Positions 3,618 to 52,509 of a stretch of 56,062 nucleotides of DNA are shown here, in pieces. The notes under the pieces are model-generated. The model was given only the letters and a program-made list of their open reading frames with translations, made no database searches and had not been told where the DNA came from. A program made the position numbers and the translations under genes. Origin of the DNA: Kordia jejudonensis (GTDB lineage Bacteria; Bacteroidota; Bacteroidia; Flavobacteriales; Flavobacteriaceae); NCBI RefSeq assembly GCF_001005315.1, contig NZ_LBMG01000043.1:1-56062 (forward strand), in the 5' to 3' direction. Numbering within the stretch: the first letter of the stretch is position 1; every line of letters begins with the position of its first letter.

Positions 3618-4733
3618 TTATTGTTGCGCCTGTTGTATAATTTTGTTGTACTTCCTGAAAAACCTGTAATAACTGAGCCATTTGACCGTATTGAACAATC
3701 GGAATTTGAAATAAATCGGATTGTTTTTTAGCAATACCAACGTATCGTACATGTTTTGATATGTGGTTTTTACTATAATTTCATCCGCTTGCATTGTGTC
3801 AATTTTACTTTTGACCAACGCGAGATTTTCATCAGTGATAAATTTATTTTTTACGTCTTTCATATACGTTCGTATTTCGTCATCGAGCAAACGACCTGGC
3901 ATGTCCATGTAGTCTAAAAAACTCCAATGTACACACTCAATGATAAAGCGGAGCATATAATCTTTTTCATAGGTTTTGTAGATGCCTTCTTTTTTTAAAA
4001 ACGTAGCAAGTAACTGATTGGCGTAATATAGATTTTTGATTTTCTTTTTTGAGAATGAAGACGTTATAGAACTTGGACGGCGTAGGTAACTATACAACGC
4101 TTGATCTTTATACACATCTATTCTTTTGGCTTTTAGAACCGCTGTACTTACAAACTGAATGTCTTCAAAAAAGATACCTTCTGTAAATTTTACATTGTGA
4201 CGTACGATGTGTTCTCTGGAAAAAATATAACTCCAAGCAGCAGACGAAAACCCTTTGCGGTTGCTGAGGTAATACGGAATAAAGTCTGTGGCACCATCTT
4301 GAAGCGTTGGCAATATAGGATAAGTGTTGGTAATGTTGCCTTTTTTATCGCACTTTACTTCAAAGTATCCAAAGAGTACAATTTCGCTTTGCTTTGTATG
4401 AGCTTCATTATATAGAATTTCTACAGCATTTGGTTCTAGCCAATCATCAGAATCTAAAAACATAATGTACGGAGCAACTGCTTTTTGTACCGCAGTATTT
4501 CTACCAAAACCGTTTCCTTTGTTTTCTTCTAATGCAATTACCGTAATCCGATGGTCTTTTTTCTGAAATTCTCGTATTATCTGAAGCGAGTTGTCTGTTG
4601 ATTTGTCATCGACAATAATGATGTCTAGCTCTTTTAAGGTTTGATTTATGGCAGAATGTAAACTTTTTTCCAAATACTTTTCAGTATTGTACACTGGAAT
4701 AATGATGGAAACTTTAGGCGTCATAATGTTCAT
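3618..4733 (-). CDS. GT2-family glycosyltransferase
   Basis: The 371-residue protein opens with the classic GT-A/GT2 fold: VSIIIPVYNTEKYLEKSL, then IIIVDDKSTDNSL (Asp42-Asp43) and the metal/nucleotide-sugar DXD motif LDSDDWL (Asp94-Asp96). An FEDIQFV segment follows, in the place of the ED acceptor-loop motif. It should transfer a sugar from a nucleotide-sugar donor. The acceptor is not evident. Its ATG overlaps the stop of the ANT(6)-like gene by four bases (ATGA), so they are translationally coupled at the 3' end of the biosynthetic operon. It could decorate the lipopeptide, but GT2 enzymes also make surface polysaccharide. A second Met, at residue 4, is an equally plausible start. Confidence 0.88.
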   Translation of the reverse strand: MNIMTPKVSIIIPVYNTEKYLEKSLHSAINQTLKELDIIIVDDKSTDNSLQIIREFQKKDHRITVIALEENKGNGFGRNTAVQKAVAPYIMFLDSDDWLEPNAVEILYNEAHTKQSEIVLFGYFEVKCDKKGNITNTYPILPTLQDGATDFIPYYLSNRKGFSSAAWSYIFSREHIVRHNVKFTEGIFFEDIQFVSTAVLKAKRIDVYKDQALYSYLRRPSSITSSFSKKKIKNLYYANQLLATFLKKEGIYKTYEKDYMLRFIIECVHWSFLDYMDMPGRLLDDEIRTYMKDVKNKFITDENLALVKSKIDTMQADEIIVKTTYQNMYDTLVLLKNNPIYFKFRLFNTVKWLSYYRFFRKYNKIIQQAQQ

Positions 4734-5656
4734 TTTTGAGGTTCGTTTGCGAAAGCGTTTATTTTTGCGACTATTTTTGTTTCTAATTCTGTTTGTCGTT
4801 GATATCCTTGCACATCGGCTACATTTTTACTAGCTTTTTGAAATAAATGCACATGTGTCAGTAAGGTTTCCATATTTTGTTTTTCATTGAAAGAAAATAT
4901 CGTTTTTTTCAATTTTTTATAGGTAGCTTCATCAGACCATTGGCTTATTTTTTTACCCAAGTAAAACAAATCTTCGTTGCTTTTGTAAAAATATCTGGTT
5001 TCCCATTCTATCATTTGCACCAGTCGTCTTTTAAATATATTATCGAGCAATACCAATGCGTAGTACATGTCGTTTCGCTTAATTTTTCCTAAAATTTTAT
5101 ATGCCGAATGCCAAAAATCAAGGTAACATTCGTTGAATTTTTTTGCGGTTACCAAACTGTCATCGTAGTCTGTAAATTCTTCTTCAATTTTGTGAATCAT
5201 TTGTTCCATATTCTTCGTATCATAAAGCATGGTATAACCTCTTATTAGGTAGGAATAAAAGGCTTTCAATTCGGCTTGAATGATGCTGAGATTGGGTATT
5301 ATTTTTTCTAGCCCGATTTTTTTTAGAAACAAATACTTTTTTACCAAACTAAATTTAGAATAACTCACAGGAATGTAATCTATACTGAAAAGATCATCGT
5401 ATATAATTCGTGTGATTCTCGTATTCTGAAAAGGATTTTCAATGACAATGACCGACATAGGCGTGCCGAAACAGGCTAACCATCCGATAGAATCTATTGA
5501 TAAAATTTCGTTTGGAGTCGTTGTAAAGACGAATATGTCTAAATCTGAAAACTCATCGTTGTAATTTTTTTCCGCATCACTAGAATGAAGCGAACCAAAA
5601 GAGATAATTCCTTTTACACTTTTTGGGATACTATTTTTGTCAATTTTTTCGACCAT
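4730..5656 (-). CDS. ANT(6)/AadE-like nucleotidyltransferase
   Basis: The 308-residue protein has the polymerase-beta-type nucleotidyltransferase signature Gly21-Ser22 followed by FSDLD (Asp38, Asp40), and a third acidic residue in IDYIPVS (Asp93). The spacing, the conserved Trp and Phe-Gly before the second block and the C-terminal helical region resemble the streptomycin 6-adenylyltransferase (AadE/AadK) family, though the match is distant. Known members transfer AMP to aminoglycosides. Here the gene sits in the NRPS-PKS operon between the exporter and a GT2 gene. It could be a self-protection or tailoring enzyme that adenylylates a hydroxyl or sugar on the product, a resistance gene carried along, or a member with another substrate. 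The fold is fairly certain and the substrate is not. Confidence 0.75.
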   Translation of the reverse strand: MVEKIDKNSIPKSVKGIISFGSLHSSDAEKNYNDEFSDLDIFVFTTTPNEILSIDSIGWLACFGTPMSVIVIENPFQNTRITRIIYDDLFSIDYIPVSYSKFSLVKKYLFLKKIGLEKIIPNLSIIQAELKAFYSYLIRGYTMLYDTKNMEQMIHKIEEEFTDYDDSLVTAKKFNECYLDFWHSAYKILGKIKRNDMYYALVLLDNIFKRRLVQMIEWETRYFYKSNEDLFYLGKKISQWSDEATYKKLKKTIFSFNEKQNMETLLTHVHLFQKASKNVADVQGYQRQTELETKIVAKINAFANEPQK

Positions 5657-5716
5657 ATGACATGCATTTTTTTGAAACAGGTTATTTTTAAATTCATAAT
5701 TTTTTGGGGTTTTTAA

Positions 5717-5750
5717 AACAGTTTTTTATTAAAAAGATAAAAGGACTGTT
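5717..5750 (-). terminator. Weak intergenic stem-loop between exporter and nucleotidyltransferase
   Basis: An inverted repeat of AACAGT and ACTGTT encloses a second pairing of TTTTAT with ATAAAA. This gives about 12 base pairs with small internal bulges, in the 124-base gap, which is the largest gap in the operon. The stem is AT-rich and the following T-run is poor, so it is at best a leaky terminator or mRNA-processing site that would lower expression of the last two genes. Confidence 0.3.
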
Positions 5751-5780
5751 CAATGCAAATCAGTATTATTTTATTTTTTT

Positions 5781-7697
5781 TTAGTGTGATGTACTCACGC
5801 TTCCATAATCTAGTTTTATAATTTTATCCGCCACATCATAATAATTGTCATCATGCGTAATGGCGATGATTATTTTTCCTTCGGCTTTCATTTTTTGAAG
5901 CAACGTACGGTAAAAGAATTTTCGAAATTCAGGATCTTGTTCGGCTGCCCATTCATCAAATAAGTAAATGGGAGAGTCCTCAATGAAACATTTTAGTAAT
6001 GCCAGCCTTTTTTTCTGTCCGCTGGAAAGCTTTATGGTGTCAAACTCTGAATTCATCAAACGTACTTTTTTGTCAAGTTTTAGCAAGCTTAAGTACGAGT
6101 CAATGCGTTCTTTTTCTTTGTCAACATCAATTCCGTACAATTTTTTAAACAGATACGAATCATTAAATACAATAGAAAATAATTCGCCCAAGCTCGCATT
6201 ATCTATTACTTCGCCATTAATTTTGATGGTGCCTTTGTCAGCTTTGTACAAACCTGTAATTACTTTGGCAAGTGTAGATTTTCCACTTCCATTACCGCCA
6301 ATAATGAACAAGATTTCTCCTTGTTGTAAGTTGAGATCAATAGGACCAATTTTGAACTTTTTTTCAGAAGCTTTGTTTTTGTAATTGAATTCAATGTCTT
6401 TGAGCGAAAAATTAGATACCGTTGGAATTTCTTGTAACGATTGTCGTTCTCCTTTGTCGAGTTCTAATTCTTTGAGAAAATCGTTGATACGATCCCACGA
6501 GATTTTAATTTCATTCAATGTCGGAACAATGGTAATCACATCCGATATAGGCGCAAAGAGATACAGAATTACCATTAAGAAACTCAGTAATACATTGCTT
6601 TGTAGCGAAGGAAAATAGAGTGGCACCACAAAACAAATAACGCCCAACACCATAATGATTGACGTGTCACTGAGAATTCGTGCATTTAAATATTGTACTT
6701 GCGCCGTAGAATTGGTGTCGCACAAATCTTTATTGAGGGCAAATATTTCTTCTTCATAAATTTGTTTTTTAGCAGTATTGATGCTCAATTCTGGATAACC
6801 TTCGACCAAACCTTCTAAAAGATGGTAATATTTATCGTTGATGCTTCGTGCTTTTTCAATATAAACGGTTGCTTTTTTGGCAACAAAATAATACAGCAAT
6901 ACCAAGAAAAACACAATGACAATCATAGACATAGTTGCCCATTGCGCAATAACCCATAAGTAAATAAACGCCACAATGATGGTTATAGAGCTGGTAATGA
7001 GTTTTAGTACTATTGCTACGGAGGAAGATATTTTGACCGTGTCGCCACTCAATGTGGCAAAGATTCTTCCTTTTTCCAATTGTTCAAAACGTTCGTAGGT
7101 GGTTTCTAAAATATTTTTGATAAGATTTGTTCTAATTTCTTGAATCAATTTGTTTGCCGTTCGGATCAGGTATGATTCTGTTATTTTTTTTGATACGACA
7201 AAAACAAAGAGCGTCACTAAAAAGAAATAACCGTACATGTTGTTTACGTCCGTGTCCAATGCTCTAATTAGTATGAAAATACAACCTGCGTTGGCAATTC
7301 CCGTAAGGATGGTAAGCAGTGCTATAATTAGCAGGTATTTATATTTACGTTCTTCCGCAGGAAATAACGTAGATAGTACAAATAATACACTTGTAAGCGC
7401 AAGACAGGCTAGCAGAAATATTTTAGAAATGTAGATGTATATAGAATCGCTAAATACAATTTCATTTAAAACGGTTTCATGTTCCAATACTTGTGGCAAT
7501 GAAAATATACCGTAGAGTAGCAACGCCAGAAATGCAACGAATAGCCCGTAATTTGAATAGGTTTTTTTGGTTGGTGATGCAAATATGCGTTGTTTCTTAA
7601 GTATTTGTACAATTGTTTTTCCTGTAAAGTACACAATGGCTAACAGGAGTATAGAAACGGAGGTTAGTAAAAGTAATTCTATGTTTGAATTGTTCAT
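5781..7697 (-). CDS. Cyclic-peptide/lipopeptide exporter, ABC transporter (membrane and ATPase fused)
   Basis: The 638-residue half-transporter has its ATPase at the C-terminus: Walker A GGNGSGKST (Lys473), signature LSSGQKKR and Walker B plus catalytic Glu in YLFDEWAAEQDPEF (Asp581, Glu582). The DEWAA-QDPEF form is a hallmark of the PvdE/SyrD group, which exports pyoverdine precursors and cyclic lipopeptides. The membrane part has about six helices (roughly 120-400). Before it lies an additional N-terminal region of about 115 residues with three more predicted helices (8-25, 50-66, 86-112), which I do not expect in the basic family form. It follows the terminal NRPS gene by 37 bases. The likely job is to carry the finished or immature lipopeptide to the periplasm. 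Confidence 0.9.
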   Translation of the reverse strand: MNNSNIELLLLTSVSILLLAIVYFTGKTIVQILKKQRIFASPTKKTYSNYGLFVAFLALLLYGIFSLPQVLEHETVLNEIVFSDSIYIYISKIFLLACLALTSVLFVLSTLFPAEERKYKYLLIIALLTILTGIANAGCIFILIRALDTDVNNMYGYFFLVTLFVFVVSKKITESYLIRTANKLIQEIRTNLIKNILETTYERFEQLEKGRIFATLSGDTVKISSSVAIVLKLITSSITIIVAFIYLWVIAQWATMSMIVIVFFLVLLYYFVAKKATVYIEKARSINDKYYHLLEGLVEGYPELSINTAKKQIYEEEIFALNKDLCDTNSTAQVQYLNARILSDTSIIMVLGVICFVVPLYFPSLQSNVLLSFLMVILYLFAPISDVITIVPTLNEIKISWDRINDFLKELELDKGERQSLQEIPTVSNFSLKDIEFNYKNKASEKKFKIGPIDLNLQQGEILFIIGGNGSGKSTLAKVITGLYKADKGTIKINGEVIDNASLGELFSIVFNDSYLFKKLYGIDVDKEKERIDSYLSLLKLDKKVRLMNSEFDTIKLSSGQKKRLALLKCFIEDSPIYLFDEWAAEQDPEFRKFFYRTLLQKMKAEGKIIIAITHDDNYYDVADKIIKLDYGSVSTSH

Positions 7698-7734
7698 AAG
7701 ATGATACGTAAGGTCTGTGAAAAACCGTATTTAT

Positions 7735-10700
7735 TTAATTGTTAAAAATAGCGTGCAACATACTTTTTAAGGTAGCGCTGTTATGCCTGAGTGCTTCCGT
7801 ATTGGGTAAAAATAATTCTTGATGCGTTCCCTGTAAATGATGTGTTTGTATTTCTTGCAACGTGAGCGAATTCCATCCTTCAATAGCTTCTTGTGATGTG
7901 TTTTCTGCTTTTAAAAATTGAATGGTACTTTTTAGCGTTCCTGAATGTATTTGAGTTAAAGCATACCTGAAATATACATCACTTTTGTTGAGTACCACGT
8001 CTTTAATAGTTTCCAACTCAGGATATTTTTCAATGTATTTTGGAATTTCTTTATGAAATTCATCTTTTTGCAAAATATCGTCAATCGCATCAATTTTGGT
8101 AAGCATTGGCAACGCATCCATAATTAATACGTCTGTTACGGAAATACCTTTAGCTTCTATGGCTTTGGCAACTTCAAACGCTAGATTTCCTCCTAACGAC
8201 CAGCCCGCTAATACGATGGCTTCGCCTGCAGTTACGGATATAATTTTTTCTACATATTGCTCTATTCGGTTTTCGGCTTCAATAAAATCAAAAGCATATA
8301 CAGCGGCAGTATCAATATGTTGCGCCAATGGTTTGTATGCAAAGCCATATCCAATTCGAGGCGGAAAGAAAAATACTTTATGTTGCTGTTCAGAGTTTAA
8401 TAAATGCAGCGAATTATATTCCGAATCTTTTTCAAAATAGGTAAGCAGATTTGCAATGGTAGGATCTTCAAAAAATGTCATGAGTTCAATATCGATTCCT
8501 ACGTTTTCTTTGAGTTTGGCAATCATGCTCAATGCCGTCATGGAGTTTCCACCAATTTCAAAGAAGTTGTCATCTTCTTCAATTTCTTTGGTATCTATCA
8601 TTAATAATTCTGACCACAATTTTTTAAGCACTTCGTTAGAACTCAATGCAGTTGCTGTATCGTCAGCAGTAGTTTTGTCAAAGCGTTGCAATAATACTTT
8701 ACGATCTACTTTCCCGTTGGTATTTAGCGGTATTTCGTCCAAACTAATCATATGTGTTGGCACCATATATTCAGGAAGTTTTTTGGCAATATCTTTCCGA
8801 AGTTGTTTTTCTGTTTTTTCTTCGTTTTGTACCACAAATGCTACCAAATGATTGATTCCCTGTTCGTCAAGTCGTTCCAAGACAGCCACTTCGGTAACGT
8901 ACGGTAGCGACAAAAATTTGCTTTCTACTTCTCCAATTTCAACTCTAAATCCTCTAATTTTTACTTGAAAATCTTTTCGCCCAACAATTTCTAACATTCC
9001 GTTTGGATGCCATTTTGCAATGTCGCCTGTATTGTACATGGTTTGTCCTTTGTGAAACGGATCGGGCATGTATTTGCTATCAGTCTTTACTTTATCATTA
9101 ATGTAACCGCGACCAACGCAGGCACCCGAAATGTACCAATCGCCTTCAACACCAATTGGTAAGAGTTCTTTTTTATCGTTCAACACGTATAAATCAGTGT
9201 CTGCAATTGGATATCCAATAGGCGGAATATCAGGCACATGACCTGTTGGCGACATATGATTGTATGCTGCGGAATGTGTTTCTGACGGACCGCAATGATT
9301 GTGCAACCACACATTGTTTTCGCGCATGTAGTTTCTGAAGTTGTCTGTAACAATTACATGTTCTCCAGCCGTTAAAATATGATGAATACATTTTGGCAAA
9401 CGTTCTAAATAGATGTTTGTGTTCAATACAAATTTTAAGAACGAAGCAGGGAAAAAGATACTTTCAATTTGTTCTTTTTCAATGATTTCAAATAATTCAA
9501 AGATGTTTTTGGTATGGCGTTCTTCAATTAAAATTAGGCTTCCACCTTCTAGCAATGCAGAGAAAATTTCTTGCGCTGATACATCAAAACTAATCGCGTG
9601 AAATTGCAATACATTTTTAAATGTTATATCAGTATGATGGGTTTGGTGTAAGAGTAAGTTGAGTAAGTTTCGTTGTTCTAACATGACACCTTTTGGCACG
9701 CCTGTAGAACCTGAAGTATGAATGATGTAGAGTAAATCTTCTACAGCATTTACAATTGGTAAATTCGATGCGTCTTCCTTTTGTAAGGCTTCGCTTCGTA
9801 CATCTGTTATGTCATAATTGCTCATATTTTCCAAGCCTGTGTCTAAGTTGGTCAATATGAATTTTGCATCAGCATTTTCGAGCATTTGTTGTTTTCGCTC
9901 GTTTGGCAAACTAATGTCAATTGGCATGTACACACCACCAGCTTTTAAGATGGCAATTACTGAAATGATAAGCTCAAAAGAACGCGTACACAACAGCGCA
10001 ACAGGAACATCTGCCGCAACGCCTTTTCTGCGCAATACATGTGCCAATTGATTAGCTTTGGCGTTCAAGCTTGCATAGGTCATTTTTTCGTTGCCGAATA
10101 TCAATGCAGGATGATTTGGCGTTTTTTCGGCTTGCTTTTCAAACAATTCATTAATGGTTGTTTTGTTTTCAAAAGCGGCTTCAGGACCTCTGGAAATTGC
10201 CATTACTTTTTGCTTTTCTTGTGCATCAAGAATAGAAATGTCATTTATTTTTATGGTTGGCGCTTGTATGACTTCTCTAACAATTTGTTGTATAAAGGTT
10301 GCAAAACGTTTAATGGTCTCTTTGGTGAATAGCGCACTGCAATAATCAAAGTGAAAACTGATTTCTTTGTGTAGTTTGATGACTGCGACATTTAAATCAA
10401 ACTTGGCATGTGTTTCTGTTGACAACTCCATATTCGATTGCATGTCTTCTTTTCCAGCATCTATGGAAATGGCGTTGAACAGTACATCAAAAATAGGCGA
10501 TCTGCTGAGTTCTCTTTTAATGTTGAGTGCGTTAACCAGTTCGTCAAACGGATATTCTTGATGATCAAATGCTGCCAGAATGGTTTCAGAAGATTCACGT
10601 AAAAATGCTTCGAAACTTTTCTCAGGAGTTGGAAAACTTCGCACTGCAAGTGTGTTGACAAACAACCCAATAATTTTTTCGAGTTCTGTATCTTTTCGTC

Positions 10701-13700
10701 CATTAATTGGAACGCCCACAATTATATCTTCCGCTTTTGTGATTTTGTGCAAAAAGATGTTGAAAATGGTCGTTAAAGTTGTGTTTAGTGACACTTTATA
10801 TCGATTGGATAGTGCTACCAACGCATTAGAATCAGCTTCGTCAATATTGAAAACATAACTGTCTCCTGCAAAACTTTTGATTGCGGGTCGTGTATGATCT
10901 ATCGGTAAGTCTAATATTGGCAATTCGCCTCCAAGTTGTTGCAACCAATAAGCTTTTTGGGCTTCTTTGCGTTGTTTTTCCTGTTCACTTTCTGACCATA
11001 CAACATAGTCTTTGTATTGTACGCGTAAAGGTGTTAATGGAGTTTCTTGATACAATGCCATGAAATCTTTTCGTAAAATTTCAGTAGAAGAAGCATCCGA
11101 AATGATATGATGAATGTCAACTAATAGAATTGAATTTGTGGGCGTTTCAATACATTCAATACGAAATAAAGGTCCTTTGTTGAGGTCAAAAGGTCTTTTG
11201 AAAGCAGTTACTTTTTTGTTGATTTCAACAGTGTCAAACGCATCTAGTTTGTGATATGTTACGCTAAAATCGATAGTGTCGAGGACTTTTTGAAAGATGT
11301 TTCCATTTTTCATAAAGAAAACAGTTCGTAAGCTTTCATGTCGTTCAATTAATTGCTGCGCCACCGTTTCGAGTCTTTCTTTTGCTAAAGGTTCCATTTC
11401 AATAACTTGCGTCATGTTGTACGCAATATTATTTTTTTCCAGCTCATATAAGAGATACATTCGCTTTTGTGCAGGCGACAATGGATATTCAGATTTTTTC
11501 TCTATTACAGGAATCTGTTTTGCTTTTTCAATAGAAAGAGTCGTCATGTATTTTGCAATTTCACGAATACTTTGCAGCTTAAAGATTTCTGAAACGGCTA
11601 CTTTGCTGTTGAGTTGTTTTTGAATTCGTGACGCGAGCATCATGGCTTTTACAGAATGTCCGCCCAATTCAAAGAACGAATCTGTAACGCTGATATTTTC
11701 TACAGGAATTTTTAGCAATTGACTCCATATGTTGACCAAAGTTTTTTCCGTTTCGGTTGAAGCGTTCTGAATTGCTTTGGCAGGAATGTTTTCGGTAGGA
11801 TTTGGAAATTTTGAAGCATCAATTTTTCCGTTTACGGTCATTGGAAATTTTTCCATTTTCATAAAGAAAGAAGGAATCATATAGGATGGCAATAGTGTTG
11901 CGAGTTCCGCTTTTAATGCATGTGCATCGTAGTTTTCCTTTTCAGGAATGATGTATGCGCATAATTGATAGTCATGCGTTTGTTTCCACGGAAGTACGTA
12001 TGCCGATTGGATTCCAGAAATTTTGGCAATTTGGGCAGTTACTTCCTGAATTTCTACACGGAAGCCACGTATTTTTATTTGATCGTCATTTCTTCCAATG
12101 AATTGTATATTTCCATCAGGCAACCAACGTCCGAAATCGCCCGAACAGTAGAGTTGTTGTGCAGCATTGAACGGATTTTGTATGAATCGTTTTGAAGCTG
12201 CAAGTTCTTTGTTGATGTAACCTTTGGAAAATCCTTTTCCTGCAATACAAATTTCGCCTTGCGCACCAATTGGCACATGATTTTTATGTGCATCCAAAAT
12301 GTATATTTCTGCATGTTTCATTGGTGTTCCGATAGGAGCGAAGTTCATTTCTTGAATATTCTCCGCGTGTATGTCAAACGCAATACTATCTACCGTGCAT
12401 TCTGCAGGTCCGTACAAGTTGATTGTTCTCGGAGCATTTGCACCATACCATTGATAAATCTTTTTTAAGGCAGGAAGGTCTAGTTGCTCGCCACCAATTA
12501 GCAAGTGTTTTAACGCGGGTATTTTTGGCAAGGTATCCAATACTTCTGCCATGATTCTTAGATGCGAAGGCGTTCCGTCTGTAATGTCAATTTCATGCGT
12601 TGTGAAATACTCCATGAGTTGGTAACCGTCTCTGCGTGTTTCTTCTGGGACAAGATATAATGAATGTCCTAAAACGAAACAGCCAAATAGTTGCTGAACA
12701 GACGGATCAAACGAGAAAGAAGCCAATAAGGCAATTTTTAAAGCTTCCGAAGTAGGATAGTGTGCATATACACTTTCAAATAAACTGTCTACTAAGTACA
12801 ATACATTTTCGTGTGAAACTTTAATGCCTTTTGGAACACCTGTAGAACCAGAAGTGTAAATGATATACGCAGCATCTTCCGCTTTTATGGTCGGCAATGT
12901 TACTTTTTCAAAGGAAGTTGTAAATGCATCTTCATAGGAAATAAGTTGCTTGTGATTTAGCGTTTGGCGTAATGGATTTTCGGTTGCAATAAGTGTACAT
13001 GTTGGTTTACTATCCGCCAACATATATTCAATTCTTCCCACAGGATACGAACTGTCAAGAATTACATAGGCGCCACCAGCTTTTAGAATTCCCCAAATGG
13101 AAACTATGGACATGGCAGTTCTATCGTCAATAATTCCGACAATATCGCCTTGTTGAACACCTTGATGAAGTAAATAATTGGCAACCGTATTGGAAGCTTC
13201 CTCCAATTGCTGATACGTCATGCTGTTGCCTTCAAAATACAATGCTGTACGATTTGGCGTGTGTTGTACATTTTTTGCAAATGCAGAAATGAGCGATTGT
13301 TTCGGTAACGTTTGTTGTTTTGGATGCGATTGAAATTGCGCTAACTGTTGCACCTCTGCTTCTGAAAGTTGAAAAAGCGTATCAACCGTTTGTGCTGTAT
13401 TTTTGATTGCTTGTAAAATGAGTCGTTTAAAATCATTTGCAATCAATTTAATAAAAGCCGAATCGTGTACATTTCCATTGAAAAGGAAGTCAATAATGAG
13501 TTTTTTTGTCGGTTGAATGAGCAAACTTAGATTGTAGTTTGTTTGCTCAAAAACGTCAATATTTTCAATAGTACAGTCAAGTTTTTCTTCCGCTTTATCT
13601 GCGTTTGAAAATGCTTCTAATTGATCTGCAATTGGAAAGTTTTCTAATACTAAGATGTGATCAAATAGGTTATTTTTTAACGGAGTTGCCGCTTGAATGT

Positions 13701-40062: not shown

Positions 40063-40108
40063 AAGTTATGCTCCCTTTTTTATTGTTTTGTTTGATTGGA
40101 TTTATTTT

Positions 40109-43100
40109 TTATACTTTTTTCGCTCTTTTGAACCGTTGTTTTAATCGTTCTTTTCCTTTGGCAATAATTTTATCATCTCGTTTTAAATCTTCGGAAGATT
40201 GCTTTCCTTTGGTTAAGTGTGCTGCCAACATTTTGATGGTTGGATATTTAAAAGCATCTACGACCGAAATTTCCCCAAGATTGGCTTCAGACACTTGCTT
40301 AACGACATTGACAATTTTGATAGAACTTCCGCCCAATTCAAAGAAATTTTTATCGGTGCTGATGTATTGCTTTTCCAGACCAAGCACGTTGAACCATATG
40401 TTTTCCAATGCCGCTTCAACTTCATTTGCAGGTTTTATGGTTTTTTCTTCTTGCAGAAAGGTTTCAGGTTTTTCAAAGCTCTTTTTATCTATTTTACCAT
40501 TGCTTGTTAATGGCATTGCATCGAGTTTGTTAAAGAAGGCAGGAATCATGTAATTTGGCAATACCGTAGCTGCCCAAGTTCTAAAATCACGCTCGTCAAT
40601 TGGAGTTTTGGCGGTGTAATACGCACTGAGTACTTGTTCATTGCCCAACTCAAAAGCGATTACGGTCACATTGGTTATTTCTGCATATTGCTGCAAGCAT
40701 TCTTCAATTTCCTTGAGTTCTACACGGTGACCACGTATTTGTATTTGTGCATCTAATCGTCCAAAATATTCTAGTTCGTTAGCAGCGTTTATTCGAGCTA
40801 CATCGCCAGAACGATATAGTTTTTCTCCTTCCTGAAAAGGATTGTTGATAAACTTTTCTTTCGTAAGTTCTGGGTTGTTTATGTAGTTGTTACTCAAACC
40901 TTTTCCACCAATAAAGAGTTCACCTTTTACTCCTTTGGGAACAATATTTAAATTGGCATCTAAAATCATGGCTTTTAACGTAGGAATCGGTTTTCCAATG
41001 CTTTTAGAATTGTTTGCTATTTCCGCTTTTCCAATTTCTTTGTACGTCACATGCACTGTAGTTTCCGTAATTCCATACATGTTTATCAGCTTTGTATCAG
41101 GATATTGCTCATCCCAAGTTGTTAATCGTTTTGGCATAAGTTCTTCTCCACCAAAAATGACATATCGTATGGAAAGTGTTTCTTCAGGTTTTGTATTGGC
41201 AACCGTAGCAAGGTTGTAAAAAGAAGAAGGAGTTTGATTTAACACGGTGACTTTTTGTATTGCCAATAGTTCATGAAATTTGAAAGCATCTTTTCGAATG
41301 TCTTCTGGAACAATTACCAAACTTCCACCAAAGAGTAATGCGCCAAAGAGTTCCCAAACCGAGAAATCGAAGTTGTATGCATGAAATAGTGACCAAACAT
41401 CTGTATCGTTAAAGTCAAATTTGTTTTTATCCGTAAAGAATAATCGAACTACATTTTCATGAGAAATAGCGACTCCTTTTGGCGTTCCTGAAGTTCCTGA
41501 GGTGTAAATTATATACGCTTGATCTGTAGGTTGTATGGCCACTTTTTTGACCTCTGCGACTGCTTCTTTTTCAATAGTTTCTATACATATGGTTTTGATA
41601 GCACTGTCAATAGCAGTAAGATTTTCACTTGTTAATAGCACAGCTGAGTTGCTGTCGTTTAGCATAAATTCTTTCCGCTTTTCAGGAAGTGAAGGTGCAA
41701 TTGGCACATATGAGCAACCATGTTTTAAGACGCCAATGATGGAAACAATCATTTCAATAGAAGGTTCAAAGTAGAGTGCAATAGGTTGATGTGTTGCAAT
41801 ATTTTCTTTTGACAAATACGCTGCTACTTGATCAGATTTTTCAGCTAACTCTTGATACGATATTTTTGTGTTGTTGTACACAATTGCCGTTTTATCTGCT
41901 TTGGTAACTGCAATGGTTTCAAAAATGTCACAGATTGTTTTTTTAGGAAATTGTACGTCTGTATTGTTTAGTAGTGTTGTTAATGCTGTTTTTTCTTCCT
42001 CTTGAAGACATTCTATATTTGATAGTAATTGTGTGGGTTTTTGTACTATATTTTTTAACAATGTATTGAAATGCGTTGCAAATTGCGCAATGGTTTCTTT
42101 TGAAAATATATCCGTAGCATATTCAAAACTTCCTTGTAAGGTTTCTTGTAGATCTACAATTTCTAGCCAGAGATCAAATTTGCTAAAACCTGTATGCAAT
42201 GGCTGTAACGCGACTTCCCAATTGAGCGTGTCGAAGTGTGGAAGTTTCATGTCTTGAAACGTAAATACGACATCAAAAACTGGTTGCCGATTTAGAATTC
42301 GTTGTTTTACAACCGTATCGACCAAATCTTCAAAAAGATATTCTTTGTTTTTGTAAGCTCCAGCAATGTGCTCGCCAACTTCATGTACATAAGTGCTAAA
42401 TTTCTTCTGCGCTGTTGGTTGCGTTCGTATTGCTAACATGTTAGTCATCATTCCAAAACCATGTAGCGATGCTTGTGTATTTCGTACAGAAGCGGGCACA
42501 CCGACTACAATATCTTCTTGCTGACTGTATTTTGAAAGAAGAAGGTAATAAACGCTCAACATGAACGTATGCACAGTTACATTGTGTTCTTTGGCAACCG
42601 TTCGTATCTGTTGCGTTAGCGTTGCATCAAGTTGAAACGGAATTCGATCGCCTTTTTCACTTTTTTCTGTAGGACGATCATGGTCTAAAGGTAATTCTAG
42701 CAACGGAATAGAATCCTGAAATTGTTCTTTCCAATACAATCCTTGAGTTTTGTAGGTTTCCGTATGTCTAAATTTATCTTCGTTGGCAATGTATTCTTGA
42801 ATGCTAAAGTCTATGGTTGATACTTCGCCGTTATGATACAGTTGTACAAATTCTCTATATAAAACACTCATGGACAATCCGTCAGCAATGATATGCGGAA
42901 TGTCAATAATCCACGTATATTTTTTAGTGTCATGTTGAAAAATACCAGATCTGATTAATGGCGTGGTTTGCAAATCAAATGGTTGTACAAATGCTTTTAT
43001 ATGTTCGTTGGCATCTTTTTCGTCTATTTTTTGAAAGGAAAGTGAAAATGATACGTTTTCATGAATTTTTTGTGTTGGAATCATGCCGTTTTCTACAAAA

Positions 43101-45310: not shown

Positions 45311-45342
45311 TGTACCCTTTTTTACTTAGTTATCATTAATTT

Positions 45343-47220: not shown

Positions 47221-47257
47221 TACGAACGAGTGCTTTTTTTGTTTTAGAGAATAGGGT

Positions 47258-48139
47258 TTAGATCGCTAATTTTTTTAGTAATCCGTCAATTCGGAAATAG
47301 GCTTCAGGATGTTCTGTTAGCAATCTGTTGGCTACATTTTCATTGACTTCTAAGGATTTTTTGAAGATTCCGATAGCGTGAATGTATTTCATTTTGCTCG
47401 GCACACTACTAAATTGTACCAAGTCAAAATTATTGGGTTTATCAAAGTAGGATTGGATTTGAATTCCTTTTTGTTGCGCCATGTAGAAATACAGTAATTG
47501 TTCGTATATCATGTTGAATGGTCCTTTGGTAATTTTATCCATATGATGCAGATTTTCATCAACAAATTTGAAGGCAGCCTTTGTATATTCTTGAATAAAA
47601 TCTAAATCGTTTCCTCCAAATAGTCCTGCATTGATTGCTGATAGCGAATCTTCATTCGGTTTTAAATCTTTTAGTACTTCAGGAATGTATTCAAAAGCAT
47701 TTTTTACTTCTGCAAAATGTGTATGATACACGGGCATGTCTATTTCTAAACTTTGTACATACAGCGGCGTATTTTTTACTTTATCTTCGATGCTTTCCCA
47801 CATAAAAACATCGCCATCTGCATGAATGAATGGTTCTTTTTGAATGCTGTATGCATATATTTTTCCAAGTGCCCAAAGGTCTTGCGGATATTTATCCAAT
47901 TCATCTAATACAACCGTAACTTTCGTGTAGGGTAATTTTAAAACATCTATGAGGATTTCTTTTCCGTACGCATCAGTAACCAATTCTACATTGTCATAAT
48001 ATTTTCGAAATTGCAAGCAACTTAGTGCCCAACTCATGTATAGATATTTTTTGTCCAACCAGCCACCGCTGAATCGACCTTCAATATCACTGCTTTGTGT
48101 TCGCATGGGTTTAGACCAAAAACTTTGAACTATTTTCAT
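47258..48139 (-). CDS. Glycosyltransferase-like protein with DGD motif, uncharacterised family
   Basis: The 293-residue soluble protein begins MKIVQSFWSKPM and has FIHADGDVFMWE, where Asp108-Gly-Asp110 sits after a hydrophobic strand as in the DXD motif of GT-A glycosyltransferases. Later, INAGLFGGNDLDF resembles the acceptor-side glycine-rich segment of such enzymes. I think it belongs to a Bacteroidota family without a known role, but cannot name it safely. It follows the GT1 gene by four bases and precedes the LanC-like gene, so it is probably translated with both. A role in adding a sugar to the lipopeptide is an inference from fold hints and position. Confidence 0.6.
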   Translation of the reverse strand: MKIVQSFWSKPMRTQSSDIEGRFSGGWLDKKYLYMSWALSCLQFRKYYDNVELVTDAYGKEILIDVLKLPYTKVTVVLDELDKYPQDLWALGKIYAYSIQKEPFIHADGDVFMWESIEDKVKNTPLYVQSLEIDMPVYHTHFAEVKNAFEYIPEVLKDLKPNEDSLSAINAGLFGGNDLDFIQEYTKAAFKFVDENLHHMDKITKGPFNMIYEQLLYFYMAQQKGIQIQSYFDKPNNFDLVQFSSVPSKMKYIHAIGIFKKSLEVNENVANRLLTEHPEAYFRIDGLLKKLAI

Positions 48140-48143
48140 ATTG

Positions 48144-49538
48144 TTATCCGTTAGTATGTGTGTTTTCTAAAAATGTTTCTACAATGGCAGCGTGCTTTGT
48201 GGCATCTTGCGCATTTTTGTATATTTTTTGCATTTTTAGAATGTTTTCTTTGAATGTTGATTTGTTTAAAATTTGTTGAATTTTTTCTGTTACATCTGCC
48301 GTAGCTTCTTTTCTAATATTTGCACGCAATCCCATACCGTGATAGGCAACTCTTGCAGCATTTCCATTTTGATCATATGGCAATCCTAATGTATCAACCA
48401 GCATTGGAACAGCATTAAAAATACATTCGTTTACAGAGTTGAGTCCTCCATGTGTTACCATAAGATCTGTTCTTTTGAGGATTTCCAATTGCGGCACTCT
48501 TTCATAGATATGTACATGTGAAGGAAGTGTTTTCAATGAGTTTTGATCGAAGTTTTTTCCAACAGAAAGAATTAAGATACAGTTGTCAATAGTTCTAACT
48601 GCATCAATTAGTTTGTTGAAAAATGTAGTTCTATCATGAAACCATAATGACGCAGAACTTCCAAGCGAAGCATAAATTACGTGTTGTGAATGTTCTAATG
48701 CGTCCAATATAGCAGCCGAATTTTTTTCATCTATGTGTGTAGTTGCAGCCACTTTTGTAAAATCGCCAGTTCTTTGTTGATCTATAATTGGACATAAATG
48801 ATATTGTTCTGGAATGTTTCTATCAGGAAAATCGAATGCTTTTTCACACAAAACGAGTTCTTTTACACCTTTAATTCCGACATAAAAAGCTCTAGACCGA
48901 TCAATTTTGTTTTTAGGAAATCCTGTTTTTTTAATCAATAAATTGATAAATGAACTAGGATCGTATCCTCGAAAGAGAATTTTGTACCATGTATTTAGCA
49001 GCCATCTTTTAACATAGTATCGCTTCCAACTCAGCGAAATTTTAAAGTTCCCAAACATTGAATCTTCTGGCATGAGCGTGGAAAAAACACCAGGATATTT
49101 TGGAGTTCGCACACTACTTACCGTCGTTTCTAACATGACGATAGGAATATTAAATTTTTGCAAACCAAAATAATATTGAACGTATGAATAGTCAATAATA
49201 AACAAGTCTGGTTTCTCACGATTGATGAGTTCTTGTATTTCGATTCCTTCCAAAAAAGTATGTTTTAATTTTTTGGTTTGTGCAATGAGTTCTTTTAAAA
49301 TTTTCAGTGGTCTTTTGTAATCATTTTCATCGGCTACTGTTTGACCTTCATGTTTGTAATAACAATCTGTAAAGATTCGCTTTAAAGGAAAACCTTGCTT
49401 TTCTACATATGCTTTTTGCGATTCGTTGTGACTTAGATACGTAATTGTATGACCTCGTTTCGCTAGTGCGCGCGCAATAGCAAAGGTGGCATTGTAGTGG
49501 CTTGGTTGGTTGAATATGATGAAACAGATGTTTGCCAT
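48144..49538 (-). CDS. GT1-family (UGT/MGT-like) glycosyltransferase
   Basis: The 464-residue protein starts MANICFIIFNQPSHYNATFAIARAL, the N-terminal Rossmann half of a GT-B enzyme. Near residues 359-395 it has VTHGGLNSVNECIFNAVPML and PYDQNGNAARV, the nucleotide-sugar-binding signature of GT1 enzymes that glycosylate small molecules such as macrolides and lipids. It lacks a signal peptide and should act in the cytoplasm. In this operon it is the most plausible enzyme for O-glycosylating the lipopeptide at Thr, Ser, a polyketide hydroxyl or a hydroxylated residue. The sugar donor cannot be told; no deoxysugar genes are in the window. Confidence 0.88.
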   Translation of the reverse strand: MANICFIIFNQPSHYNATFAIARALAKRGHTITYLSHNESQKAYVEKQGFPLKRIFTDCYYKHEGQTVADENDYKRPLKILKELIAQTKKLKHTFLEGIEIQELINREKPDLFIIDYSYVQYYFGLQKFNIPIVMLETTVSSVRTPKYPGVFSTLMPEDSMFGNFKISLSWKRYYVKRWLLNTWYKILFRGYDPSSFINLLIKKTGFPKNKIDRSRAFYVGIKGVKELVLCEKAFDFPDRNIPEQYHLCPIIDQQRTGDFTKVAATTHIDEKNSAAILDALEHSQHVIYASLGSSASLWFHDRTTFFNKLIDAVRTIDNCILILSVGKNFDQNSLKTLPSHVHIYERVPQLEILKRTDLMVTHGGLNSVNECIFNAVPMLVDTLGLPYDQNGNAARVAYHGMGLRANIRKEATADVTEKIQQILNKSTFKENILKMQKIYKNAQDATKHAAIVETFLENTHTNG

Positions 49539-49564
49539 TTGTTGGATTGGAAGCTGGTTAAGTT

Positions 49565-50221
49565 TTATTTACCAAAAAGTCTTTTTAGACGTAGGTTGAC
49601 GATTTTGAGTCCTTTTTTTGAAAGTTGTAGTATCGATTTTGGTTTCCCTAATTGTTTTCTTCCGTCGTACTTAGCTTCTTTGGCAAAAGGTCCATCTGCA
49701 TCAGTATAAAACATGAATACTTGTATTTGAAATTCTCCTGTAAACGGTTCACGCCAGTGTGTCATTTCGTTTCCTCTAAAGACTAAAAAGTCTCCTCGTC
49801 CCATTACAGCTTCTTTGGTCACACCTTTATCATCTAGTAATATGTTCCATCCAGTTTCAGGATTGCAACCGAGCGTTAAGGTGGCACTAATTGTAGAACT
49901 TTCAGAATCTTTGTGTTTCCCTAATTCGGCACCTTTTCTGTACACGCAAGACAGTGAAAACATTGGATGTAGGTTGTATCCTGTAATTTCTTCCACAATG
50001 GGTTTTAAAGAAAGTAAAATACTGTCTCCTAGTTCGTTACCATATTTTATTTTTCGTGCATTTAGGTTGTAAAAACGACTGTCTAACGTTTGCCTATTTT
50101 CACTCATTAAAAAATATTCAGAGAATGCTTTTATGGATTCATCATTGAAAACTTTTTCAACAATGGCATATCCATTTTCTTTAAAAAATGCGGCTTTTTC
50201 TTCGTGGTTTATGTTTGGCAT
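49565..50221 (-). CDS. 2-oxoglutarate/Fe(II) oxygenase-like protein (unassigned substrate)
   Basis: With the start at ATG 50221 the protein has 218 residues. A double-stranded beta-helix metal site is visible: HKD (His103, Asp105) and the distal His155 in EMTHWREPF, followed by Gln/Arg positions for 2-oxoglutarate. LVFRGNEMTHWRE is typical of non-haem 2OG oxygenases. It is the third oxygenase gene in a row, 14 bases after the Asp/Asn-hydroxylase-like gene with this start. A longer reading starting at 50260 would overlap that gene by 25 bases and add 13 residues. I prefer the shorter start because the recognisable fold begins there and A is found at -3. It probably hydroxylates the peptide or a building block. 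Confidence 0.82.
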   Translation of the reverse strand: MPNINHEEKAAFFKENGYAIVEKVFNDESIKAFSEYFLMSENRQTLDSRFYNLNARKIKYGNELGDSILLSLKPIVEEITGYNLHPMFSLSCVYRKGAELGKHKDSESSTISATLTLGCNPETGWNILLDDKGVTKEAVMGRGDFLVFRGNEMTHWREPFTGEFQIQVFMFYTDADGPFAKEAKYDGRKQLGKPKSILQLSKKGLKIVNLRLKRLFGK

Positions 50222-50235
50222 ATTGTTCAGATTGG

Positions 50236-50946
50236 CTATTTCAGTTCTTTTTCTTCCCAAGCTTCGTATAGTTTTTTAGGAATTTTTATTTGACTTGATT
50301 CTTTAATTTCTTTTACAACACTTTTATTGAGTTGATCAATATCTTCAGGAAGTGGTCGCAAGAATTCAACCAATAGCACAACTCGCGTTTCATCGGTGTT
50401 GTTATGTACTTCATGAATGTAACTGTCGTCAAATATTAGCGCTTCGTCCATTTTCCATTGGTACTTATCTCCATCAACTTTTAGCCAATAATCATCCCCA
50501 TTTTGTGGAAGAATAATAGGCAAGTGACATTTAATAACGCCGCCATACGGACCTCTATGTGGTTTGATGTGTTTTCCTGGCGATAGAATAGAGAAGAAGC
50601 AGGTAATTACATCAGGAATTTTAGAAACAATTTCGAATGTTTTGGGCATTCTTTCGATCGTTTTTTTATTGGTTTCCCCATACGCCATTAATCCTATAAT
50701 TCTCCAATCGTCATGTCCTTCGGTTTTGTCTTCCGATAAGTCTCTCAGTGTAGGTAACTTTTCTATAGCCAGTTCTTTGATGAAGTTTTTATATTCTTCA
50801 GTAATCACGGCGGTATTTTTTTCCAATTCTTTTGCCCACGCAAAGGCATCATTATTAAATACAGGATGATCTCCTACTAACGAGTTTGCTTTTACTATTT
50901 TTTCGGCCTTTAGGAGTTTGTTGTATTCACTCTGAACGTTTTCCAT
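50236..50946 (-). CDS. Aspartyl/asparaginyl beta-hydroxylase-like 2OG oxygenase
   Basis: The 236-residue protein matches the Asp/Asn beta-hydroxylase family: SPGKHIKPHRGPYGG (His130, with Gly132 where many 2OG enzymes have Asp), then ALIFDDSYIHEVHNNTDETRVVLL with distal His178 and Arg188 for 2-oxoglutarate. The HxG form and the FDDSxxHE block are family hallmarks. Members hydroxylate the beta-carbon of Asp or Asn, including carrier-bound or free residues in NRPS pathways. Protein C is predicted to activate Asn, so beta-hydroxyasparagine in the product is a reasonable prediction. It starts 15 bases after the proline-hydroxylase-like gene. Confidence 0.87.
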   Translation of the reverse strand: MENVQSEYNKLLKAEKIVKANSLVGDHPVFNNDAFAWAKELEKNTAVITEEYKNFIKELAIEKLPTLRDLSEDKTEGHDDWRIIGLMAYGETNKKTIERMPKTFEIVSKIPDVITCFFSILSPGKHIKPHRGPYGGVIKCHLPIILPQNGDDYWLKVDGDKYQWKMDEALIFDDSYIHEVHNNTDETRVVLLVEFLRPLPEDIDQLNKSVVKEIKESSQIKIPKKLYEAWEEKELK

Positions 50947-50961
50947 AATTTTTGGTTAGTT

Positions 50962-51792
50962 TTAATTATTTATTGGTCCTTTTCTTATTAATAAATCGGT
51001 CACTTCTTGTGCTTTTCGTTGAATGTTATAATTGTTAGAAGCAGTTGCAATTTCATCTAACCAACCGAAAACCAGTTCGCTAGACACATTTCTATAAAAA
51101 TGTATTTTGGAGAGTATTGATAAAATATCGTCAAAGTTCATTTCATTAATGATCTTAGATAATCCTTTTATATAGCCTAATTCTTCTTCTTTTAGCTGTG
51201 TTCGTTGGCTAATTTTTGGAATCAAATTTGGTTGGTAATTTTCCGAGTTTAGAAATAATTCTTCAAACGGAATATCAGGAGCAAAGTCAATCACTAAATT
51301 GATCCGCTTTACTTTTGAAAAGTTGGCGGCACTGTGAATTTTTCTTCCTTCTATAAACCATATTTCGCCTTTTTGCATATTGTACACAACATCTTCTTCG
51401 GAAGTAAGCGCATGTTCGTTAATTTTAAGCGGAATGTGAATTCGTGTAAATCCTTTTTTAAATTCTAAATAGTCTTTATGTGGAATAATTAATCCGTTAA
51501 TACACATAAAAAGTCGAACCGTTTTTATATGCTCTTTTTTGAAAGTATTTGCTATAATTTCATTGACATATGCAAGTTGTTTACCATATTCTGTCGGTTT
51601 TACATACGTATCATGTTCTATAGATAAATGATCATCTTTCTGTCCGGAGCGATTCCAAAGCATGCATGTTTTCCAAATTCCTGATGCATATTCACTGTAC
51701 GAATCATTGAATTCGAAAGTATCTATCAATTTCAGCTCTTTGTCCAGTAAGTGTTCTTCAAAATTTACTTTGCCTATTATTTTTGATTCCAT
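50962..51792 (-). CDS. Proline-hydroxylase-like 2OG oxygenase
   Basis: The 276-residue protein resembles bacterial free L-proline hydroxylases of the cis-3/cis-4 type along its whole length, as far as I remember those sequences: an N-terminal SxIIGK start, IPHKDYLEF (His105, Asp107), MQKGEIWFIEGRKIHSAANFS (His153), KRINLVIDF with Arg163 for 2-oxoglutarate, and a helical C-terminal extension including DDILSILSKIHFYRNV. These enzymes hydroxylate the proline ring before NRPS loading. The last A domain of protein F has a Pro-like pocket, so the two predictions support each other. Position 3 versus 4 cannot be decided by eye. It follows the thioesterase gene by 15 bases. Confidence 0.83.
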   Translation of the reverse strand: MESKIIGKVNFEEHLLDKELKLIDTFEFNDSYSEYASGIWKTCMLWNRSGQKDDHLSIEHDTYVKPTEYGKQLAYVNEIIANTFKKEHIKTVRLFMCINGLIIPHKDYLEFKKGFTRIHIPLKINEHALTSEEDVVYNMQKGEIWFIEGRKIHSAANFSKVKRINLVIDFAPDIPFEELFLNSENYQPNLIPKISQRTQLKEEELGYIKGLSKIINEMNFDDILSILSKIHFYRNVSSELVFGWLDEIATASNNYNIQRKAQEVTDLLIRKGPINN

Positions 51793-51807
51793 TTTTATAA
51801 ACCTGTG

Positions 51808-52509
51808 TTAAGTTGTAAGGGCTTCTAATGTTTGATTGATATAGTTGAGTACGTCCTCTTTTTTTTCATTGATAAAAAAATGACCACCATCAAAGTTTTT
51901 AACGGTACATTTTTTATTAGTTATGGTTGCCCAATTTTGCATTTCTTCCTTTGTAAATTCATCAGTAATTCCATTTAAAACACTGATATCCGTATGTACA
52001 CTTTGCGACATATTTTGTTTTGGAATGTAGCATTCATCGAGTTTATAATCGCTTCTGATGATGGGCAAGAAAATTTTAGATAATTCTTCATTTTGAAAAA
52101 CTTCTTTTGGAGTTCCTTCTAAATGTAGCAAGGTGTTTTTGAACTCTTCGTCAGGAAGATCATGCACAAAATCATCTTTTTTAGTTGAAGGAAAACCTCT
52201 TCCCGAAAGGAAAAGATGCTCAGGAATTCGTCCTTTTTCAGTATAACATTTTACCGCCAATTCATAAGTAAGTAAAGCTCCCAAACTATGTCCGAAAAAT
52301 GCAAAACGTTCACCTAAATCATTGCTAATTTTTGAGTACAAATCGTCAATAGCTTCCTCCATTGATTTGTATAGCGGTTCTCCAATTCGCGTACCTCTTC
52401 CTGCGAGTTCCGTAAATTTTAAATTGACATTTTTAGGTAAGTCTTTTTTCCAAGATGCAAACGCATAAGCAGATCCACCAGCAAAAGGAAAACAAAATAG
52501 GTTAATCAT
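51808..52509 (-). CDS. Type II (external) thioesterase of the NRPS-PKS system
   Basis: The 233-residue alpha/beta hydrolase starts INLFCFPFAGGSAYAF, the usual opening of NRPS type II thioesterases, with the nucleophile in FFGHSLGA (Ser75), ELAGRGTR at 34-41 and the catalytic histidine in FDGGHFF (His210). It is free-standing and would remove stalled or wrong acyl groups from carrier domains. It is the first gene of the operon, next to the divergent gap that must hold the promoter. Length and motifs are normal for the family. Confidence 0.93.
   Translation of the reverse strand: MINLFCFPFAGGSAYAFASWKKDLPKNVNLKFTELAGRGTRIGEPLYKSMEEAIDDLYSKISNDLGERFAFFGHSLGALLTYELAVKCYTEKGRIPEHLFLSGRGFPSTKKDDFVHDLPDEEFKNTLLHLEGTPKEVFQNEELSKIFLPIIRSDYKLDECYIPKQNMSQSVHTDISVLNGITDEFTKEEMQNWATITNKKCTVKNFDGGHFFINEKKEDVLNYINQTLEALTT

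Follow-up and report, generated by a model that had tools for sequence, protein, structure and literature searches.

Which compound do six megasynthases encoded side by side in Kordia jejudonensis assemble, and how does the growing chain pass between proteins of which some begin with only half of a condensation (C) domain? The window analysed here is a stretch of 56,062 nucleotides (contig NZ_LBMG01000043.1, our C156), one of the 217 contigs of a genome of 5.36 Mb that has 44 C-domain matches. Positions 3618–52509 (49 kb) contain an intact, collinear cluster of fatty acyl-adenylate ligase (FAAL), polyketide synthase (PKS) and nonribosomal peptide synthetase (NRPS) genes. From its sequence we consider it likely that the cluster is an intact Kordia assembly line for a glycosylated and hydroxylated lipopeptide, cyclic or linear, with the predicted order acyl-Thr-(malonate, KR)-(C2, KR)-Asn-Leu-X-D-Ser(Me)-Gln-Pro-TE, where KR is a ketoreductase, TE a thioesterase and X the residue of the fourth adenylation (A) domain. 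Specialist interest is most likely to be greatest in two of its features: the junctions at which a protein ending in a full C domain is followed by one beginning with a half C domain and an A domain, and a doubly interrupted A domain.

Module order and conservation of the cluster

The six megasynthases (the FAAL protein, PKS1, PKS2/NRPS, N3, N4 and N5; Table 1) follow one another on the minus strand in biosynthetic order. The initial annotation had described six collinear proteins on one strand, and the order of the open reading frames (ORFs), the Pfam domains, the motifs and the counterpart in the genome of a second Kordia species (G008) all agree with this. Half C domains were called with the Pfam model of the C domain and a C profile of our own, and the epimerization (E) domain was called by motif. 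A search for active-site motifs recovered those of both ketosynthases (KSs), the acyltransferase (AT), the two KRs, the C domains and the TE; for the carrier that follows A(Asn), a reading by eye gives GGQSL, which falls outside the search pattern used. We read the nine-letter specificity codes off an alignment that used a GrsA fragment as the ruler; a reading by eye agrees with them and also supplied the first two letters of the A7 code. The codes DFWNIGMVH (A1), DLTKIGEIG (A2), DAWFLGAVV (A3), DVWHFSLVD (A5), DPQDLGLVD (A6) and DVQFLAHSA (A7) presumably specify Thr, Asn, Leu, Ser, Gln and Pro, respectively, by the usual code tables. They uphold the module order and substrates first proposed, as does their agreement with G008. 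The A4 code, for residue X, is DAFFIALVW; a term search of the accessible text of PMC12283262, in which DAWFLGNVVK is listed for Leu, did not return it. Asn, Leu, X, D-Ser, Gln and Pro would be added after the amino-polyol and the TE would release the chain; this gives six residues after the Thr-derived unit and not the heptapeptide-type chain suggested earlier.

The chain appears to start on a fatty acid. The FAAL region matches PDB entry 3pbk, annotated as a ‘Fatty Acyl-Adenylate Ligase’, over residues 34–554 with an E value of 3e-70, and is followed by a thiolation (T) domain and a C domain, which bears out the FAAL start that had been proposed. Judging from motifs and order, the FAAL would adenylate a fatty acid and load the first carrier, and the C domain, which has PHxxxDG in place of HHxxxDG in both species, would couple the acyl group to Thr. 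The AT of PKS1 is presumably of the malonyl type, judging from its motifs GHSLGE and HAFH. The HAAGxxD stretch and the Y/N motif are present in each KR and a domain search found no dehydratase (DH) in the PKS modules, so two hydroxyl groups are expected. The two PKS modules would extend the chain by two C2 units and turn each ketone into an alcohol, giving an N-acyl 6-amino-3,5,7-trihydroxyoctanoyl unit, the same unit as in the initial annotation, which follows from Thr, two C2 units and two KRs with no DH found.

The two PKS modules predicted at the outset are recognisable by their KS, KR and carrier motifs, but the second has no AT: in PKS2 Pfam recognises the KS, the linker, the KR and the acyl carrier protein (ACP) with no match to PF00698, and in neither species could AT motifs be found in it. 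PKS2 keeps the post-KS linker and a YPFAKTKF stretch resembling that after the AT of PKS1. Modules without an AT that are charged in trans are common among trans-AT PKSs, and PKS2 would probably be charged in this way, by the AT of PKS1 or by a stand-alone FabD-like protein. The cluster has no dedicated stand-alone AT; the only two AT matches in the genome are PKS1 and a 308-amino-acid frame on another contig (C112). Such a shortage of candidates would suit a PKS2 that is inactive or skipped for want of an AT, with only one C2 unit added. We regard this as improbable, given that PKS2 retains its KS, KR and carrier motifs in either species and that charging in trans is common. Trans-AT clusters occur in Kordia according to the available text of a survey (PMC10734526).

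The whole cluster, from the family 2 glycosyltransferase to the type II thioesterase, is found in G008 with identical gene order and identical domain order, the absent AT of PKS2 included. The small genes were paired by size, position and sequence start, the two end genes by eye. The identities between the two species are 77.1% for the FAAL protein, 72.4% for N3, 81.0% for N4 and 85.1% for N5 (the four megasynthases compared), 83% for a DUF6734 protein, 61% for a LanC-like protein and 87% for a proline hydroxylase. Six of the seven specificity codes are equal at all nine positions, and A7 is equal at the six positions aligned in both. The flanking genes are a PAS histidine kinase and RadC on one side and a DNA ligase on the other in the window, and a glycosidase-like gene and a radical-SAM-like gene (by eye) in G008. 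As the flanks outside both ends differ while the end genes are the same, the borders originally drawn at 3618 and 52509 are correct, and the block would have moved or been lost as a unit. On the sequences compared, this recurrence is far beyond chance. Scanning named genomes with the FAAL region gave one close match (83%; NZ_CANMEZ010000005.1, uncultured Kordia sp. isolate 396), the remaining two being distant (24% and 36% identity). Just outside the cluster in the window (53369–55971, plus strand) lie a metallo-β-lactamase-fold protein and then the ATP-dependent DNA ligase.

Junctions between a full C domain and a half C domain

PKS2 and N3 each end in a full C domain (HHxxxD) with the tail NMDFDF or KEDFNF, and in N3 and N4 the A domain is preceded at the N-terminus by no more than a C-lobe, the latter half of a C domain. 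Unlike junctions built on COM or other docking domains, PKS2–N3 and N3–N4 divide a module so that C lies on one protein and A on the next, which opens with a C-lobe. The N4–N5 junction resembles an ordinary E-COM to C junction: N4 ends in an E domain with a COM-donor-like tail (ISLEELDALESFFDE) and its partner starts directly with C, and it is only here that the sequence features fit COM docking. At most other Kordia junctions a T domain is followed by a leader of ∼65 residues and C, TubC_N-like in length; the TubC_N Pfam model itself gave a single match, which fell short of the cut-off and came from a different genus.

We surveyed 97 neighbouring megasynthase pairs lying less than 6 kb apart in stretches fetched from 11 Kordia genomes, using profiles built from the window's own domains, which may miss diverged ones. 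Wherever the downstream protein of a pair begins with a recognised half C domain, its upstream neighbour ends in C (10/10). The 20 C-ending proteins are followed by a half C domain (10), by an unrecognised stretch before A (3), by A directly (6, some of which are possibly cut genes) or by a leader and C (1). The 69 T-ending proteins, including two with trailing domains, are never followed by a recognised half C domain; five of the six E-ending proteins have C immediately next, and the two A-ending rows are fragment-like. An F-x-F-type tail is present on eight of the ten proteins upstream of a half C domain, the other two ending in LEENF. Collapsing orthologues leaves seven independent half-C junctions.

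On the simplest reading that accounts for all the observations, A domains lacking a C domain of their own retain the C-lobe against which they pack; docking would come on top of this. At PKS2–N3 and N3–N4 the downstream C-lobe would probably hold the C:A platform together or dock the upstream C domain. The fuller proposal is that Kordia NRPSs have an undescribed junction at which a module is cut between C and A, that the half C domain both rebuilds the platform and docks the working upstream C domain, which bears a DF(D/N)F-like tail, and that this goes together with a natural three-reaction Ser A domain (adenylation and two methylations); it is tentative, and as a whole we hold it to be rather doubtful.

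Several observations weigh against a strict docking pair. Two of the 12 recognised half-C proteins have no adjacent C-ending partner, both in the genome of the window: C1b is not preceded by any NRPS gene within the stretch covered, and at C177 the upstream NRPS gene is 6.7 kb away, with 284 residues after its last C domain. In G003 (132571), 261 residues before A align with a half C domain, and the upstream protein is T-ending with 427 trailing residues. Further proteins, some of them the first of their stretch, also have long unrecognised regions ahead of A; in G002 (1519) and G010 (1730) these span ∼240 residues, and the stretch shows no partner upstream. Conversely, three lone C-A-T-C proteins (C1a and C183 of the window's genome, and G003 156077), which look like one family, end in a DFNF tail with no half-C neighbour. 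A strict pairing of half C domain and DFxF tail was rejected, the tail occurring on lone proteins and the half C domain without a C-ending partner. Also rejected was a single half-C clade as defined by our own profile: the C177 and C1b sequences score 24 and 21 bits, respectively, against up to 119 bits for ordinary C-lobes.

It may be that the half C domain is the leftover of a lost C domain with no docking role, the terminal C domain working with the next A-T in trans by ordinary contacts, and we give this somewhat less than an even chance. It would account for half-C-like starts on proteins with no C-ending neighbour, for an identity of only about 16–31% between half C domains of unrelated clusters and for the six of 20 C-ending cases in which A follows directly; a truncated C domain has moreover been called probably inactive elsewhere (ThdA, below). 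A mere remnant would be expected to sit less easily with the recognition of half C domains at seven unrelated junctions and with their conservation between the two species, where the frames are open and the identity is 71% in N3 (A, 73%; C, 73%) and 67% in N4 (A, 79%; C, 85%).

In term searches of the accessible text of PMC9113145, PMC12402864, PMC8097286 and PMC8949500, the succession of a protein ending in C and one starting with a half C domain did not come up. In the thermoactinoamide synthetase ThdA a truncated C domain starts the loading module; the available text calls it probably inactive, while allowing that it may influence the A domain (PMC7253712). There the truncated domain precedes A on a starter module, whereas the Kordia half C domains follow a protein ending in a full C domain. 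In syringomycin biosynthesis the C and A domains of one module are also on different proteins, SyrE and SyrB1; SyrE ends in C-T-TE, the A-T protein loads through a shuttle, and the accessible text describes no half C domain (PMC8949500).

Two side observations touch these proteins. The lone C-A-T-C loci with the DFNF tail lie on C1 (L035) and C183 (L040) and on C1 of G003 at about 3421–3425 kb, and the two copies in the window's genome adjoin a similar secreted-hydrolase-like gene (by eye). An NRPS of G512 (L151:2769-13790, genus g147) seems to open with a half C domain, the A3 motif of the A domain that follows lying at residue 417, so half-C starts may occur outside Kordia.

A serine A domain with two built-in methyltransferases

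In both the window and G008 the Ser A domain of N4 (A5) is interrupted twice, by a class I methyltransferase between motifs a2 and a3 and by an FkbM methyltransferase between a8 and a9. The former matches PDB entry 5wmm, an A-M-A NRPS, with an E value of 5e-23 (query with flanks, 18410–19252); we take this entry, which is deposited simply as an NRPS, to be TioS. For the FkbM insertion the PDB search gave no match. Ser would be methylated, perhaps twice, by the two enzymes built into its own A domain, and the E domain ending N4 makes D-Ser likely. The initial annotation likewise placed a (methyl)D-Ser at this step.

Two insertions in one domain could be redundant, and one of the methyltransferases may be dead, with Ser methylated once or not at all; we see this as a possibility of some weight, if the lesser one. 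The S-adenosylmethionine-binding stretches VLEIGCASG and VLDVGANIG speak for two working enzymes, being identical in the window and G008, with surroundings that are nearly so.

Neither insertion is peculiar to Kordia. The FkbM query matches in 104 of 395 Bacteroidota genomes, and among the long-ORF hits inspected (the window and seven others) at least three NRPSs carry it at a8–a9: the window, G556 and G474. This is a lower bound, as at most six candidates were scored per genome and the long ORFs of G529, G456 and G553 were left out; the five other long ORFs with FkbM hits (G378, G421, G492, G517 and G365) show no NRPS motifs. An FkbM insertion unique to Kordia was therefore rejected, two NRPSs of the family genus g147 (probably Flavobacterium) carrying it at a8–a9. 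The same holds for a unique a2–a3 methyltransferase: by coordinates and motifs, a comparable domain lacking the FkbM motif lies immediately ahead of A3 in G512 and G584, the two placed so among 12 matching genomes. The two insertions together were found only in the window and G008 among the sequences inspected. As a side observation, the NRPS of G474 (L079:3006-8447) has an A domain with a luciferase-like monooxygenase after A3/A4 and before A5 as well as FkbM at a8–a9.

Methyltransferases inside the A domain at these same two sites are known from TioN and MarQ (a2–a3) and from KtzH and TioS (a8–a9), of which KtzH also acts on Ser. ColG has two insertions, both at a8–a9, whereas here a2–a3 and a8–a9 are each occupied. 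In the available text of PMC11355689, natural single insertions and the ColG pair are described, and the a2–a3 plus a8–a9 double appears only as an engineered construct; the Kordia domain differs in that both sites are occupied naturally, with an FkbM-type enzyme at a8–a9. Natural cases of this double may be in print elsewhere.

Tailoring, export and the predicted product

Table 1. Coordinates of the cluster genes and of selected domains in the window (all on the minus strand).
Feature	Position	Strand	Evidence
Family 2 glycosyltransferase	3618–4733	-	Family models; other end of conserved cluster
Aminoglycoside 6-adenylyltransferase-like (nucleotidyltransferase)	4730–5656	-	PF04439, E 1.6e-20; ANT(6) models far below cut-offs
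Cyclic peptide export ABC transporter	5781–7697	-	TIGR01194, 320 bits (cut-off 286)
NRPS N5: C-A(Gln)-T-C-A(Pro)-T-TE	7735–14739	-	Pfam, motifs
NRPS N4: half-C-A(X)-T-C-A(Ser; doubly interrupted)-T-E	14729–23569	-	Pfam, own profile, motifs, G008 alignment
E domain at N4 end, COM-donor-like tail	14792–16126	-	C-superfamily match, motif HHLLIDG
FkbM methyltransferase, a8–a9 of Ser A domain	16688–17254	-	PF05050, E 3.4e-16
Methyltransferase, a2–a3 of Ser A domain	18683–19141	-	PF13489/PF08242 region, residues 1477–1629
Half C domain, N-terminus of N4	22826–23536	-	Pfam positions 192–455 of 456; own profile
NRPS N3: half-C-A(Leu)-T-C, tail ...KEDFNF	23604–27497	-	Pfam, own profile, motifs
Half C domain (C-lobe only), N-terminus of N3 (Leu module)	26739–27470	-	Pfam 189–455 of 456; own C profile 174–438 of 438
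PKS2/NRPS: KS-(no AT)-KR-ACP-C-A(Asn)-T-C, tail ...NMDFDF	27522–35567	-	Pfam, own profile, motifs
Full C domain, C-terminus of PKS2 (HHIISDA)	27573–28832	-	C-domain match, own profile
PKS1: KS-AT-KR-ACP	35548–40062	-	AT motifs GHSLGE, HAFH
FAAL protein: FAAL-T-C-A(Thr)-T	40109–45310	-	Pfam, PDB match, motifs
LanC-like protein, 625 amino acids	45343–47220	-	PF05147, E 1.9e-14
DUF6734 protein, predicted GT-A glycosyltransferase	47258–48139	-	PF20508, E 4.5e-105
UDP-glycosyltransferase, GT1/MGT-like	48144–49538	-	Family models
Third 2OG-Fe(II) oxygenase-like protein	49565–50260	-	PF13532, E 0.009, below cut-off; ORF conserved in G008
Asp/Asn β-hydroxylase / OlsC-LpxO-like 2OG oxygenase	50236–50946	-	PF05118
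Proline hydroxylase-type 2OG oxygenase	50962–51792	-	Family and PDB matches; G008 counterpart
Type II thioesterase	51808–52509	-	PF00975, E 1.1e-36; border gene of conserved cluster (paired by eye in G008)

Three genes of the 2-oxoglutarate (2OG) oxygenase type are present, as had been stated, the third at the edge of detection. The first has as its nearest solved relatives an L-proline cis-4-hydroxylase (E 1e-49) and a proline 3-hydroxylase (entry named ‘proline oxidase’; E 1e-45), and its Fe ligands HxD...H can be read from the alignment; weak PDB matches to thermonuclease and a toxin light chain (E 0.001, 70 residues) were set aside as chance. Against plasmid sequences the same enzyme returned 11 records below 60% identity, on which nothing here is based. 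As it groups with the proline hydroxylases, a hydroxy-Pro at the 3- or 4-position is likely, and Pro would be hydroxylated by this free-standing enzyme. The PF05118 protein matches AspH in the PDB (E 7.5e-16) and scores 171 bits with OlsC (cut-off 450) and 105 bits with LpxO (cut-off 500), both far below the cut-offs; OlsC and LpxO are lipid acyl 2-hydroxylases, and the enzyme may act on Asn or on the acyl chain. Of the two hydroxylations first proposed, that of Pro is thus well supported, while that of Asn is one option only.

Three glycosyltransferase-type genes (GT1-like, DUF6734 and GT2) agree with the neighbouring glycosyltransferases claimed originally, and up to three such enzymes would add sugars; the ABC exporter would secrete the product. 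The DUF6734 protein is predicted to have a GT-A fold with a DxD motif: HxDGDVFxW is invariant in an alignment of ten sequences, the window included, and the best PDB matches of its structure model (pLDDT 87.6) are GT-A enzymes (E 9e-6, TM below 0.6). The LanC-like model is of low confidence (pLDDT 57.7) and matches LanCL1/CuvL (E 4e-4). In LanC, the lanthionine cyclase, the zinc ligands are a Cys and a Cys-His pair; here the Cys of WCxG is missing and SWKHG stands in its place (by eye).

The DUF6734 and LanC-like genes directly precede the first NRPS gene of the cluster. A second such pair precedes an NRPS gene on contig C146 of the same genome (LanC-like protein 23% identical, E 7e-18), and a C146-type pair does so in G003 and G006; with this recurrence the two genes look like a cassette that accompanies part of the Kordia NRPSs. 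In the C146-type clusters (L023–L024; L026 in G003, L027 in G006) the LanC-like protein has about 650 amino acids, and next in the C146 cluster come a flavoprotein that by eye resembles a halogenase and an NRPS with a half C domain. DUF6734 relatives in G009 and G005 (L031, L032) lie near apparent ribosomal-peptide genes (ATP-grasp-like, peptidase-type ABC transporter; by eye), and the family may serve several peptide classes. The aminoglycoside 6-adenylyltransferase-like gene is conserved inside the cluster in both species, and its protein may protect the producer or modify the product.

Some points count against the assembly line as drawn. We know of no match for the A4 code and residue X is left without an assignment; the third oxygenase is weakly recognised and gave no match in the PDB search; and the LanC-like protein, with its altered WCxG, has no place in the pathway. 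The nature of this last gene, the missing AT of PKS2, the double methyltransferase insertion and the half-C junctions had not been recognised in the initial annotation.

In FAAL-initiated lipopeptide hybrids of NRPS and PKS, the FAAL loads a fatty acid, a C domain acylates the first residue, NRPS modules and a TE follow, and an exporter is present. The Kordia cluster shares this plan of loading, acylation, NRPS modules, TE release and export, but differs in having Thr, two KR-only PKS modules and Asn-Leu-X-Ser-Gln-Pro, a second PKS module without AT, and the C|half-C-A junctions. We think it quite unlikely that the product belongs to a lipopeptide family that is already known. A FAAL match at an E value of 1e-60 or better occurs in eight of 397 Flavobacteriaceae genomes (evenly sampled, with no more than three candidates per genome scored). 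Apart from that of the window's own genome, the best of the matches listed is 44% identical; G008 is not among them. A full-length proline hydroxylase of the cluster type is found in two of 11 Kordia genomes (the window's and G008), the other nine giving partial matches of at most 33%. The accessible literature on Kordia biosynthetic gene clusters names no Kordia lipopeptide, which fits the earlier ‘probably undescribed’; within these limited searches, the product is probably undescribed. The 225 kb hybrid cluster of K. antarctica and the Aquimarina NRPS families are likewise large orphan NRPS/PKS clusters in relatives (PMC7477175, PMC12677607); the available text gives no shared product, and the likeness is one of kind, not of gene-by-gene module order.

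The Bacteroidota are a little-explored source of lipopeptides, and the scaffold predicted here, an acylated amino-triol fused to a hydroxylated and glycosylated peptide, had no match within the searches made. If true, a module that is naturally divided between C and A and keeps a conserved C-lobe would show NRPS engineers where to cut and let them probe the requirements of the C:A platform, and a natural doubly methylating A domain would be the native counterpart of laboratory designs.

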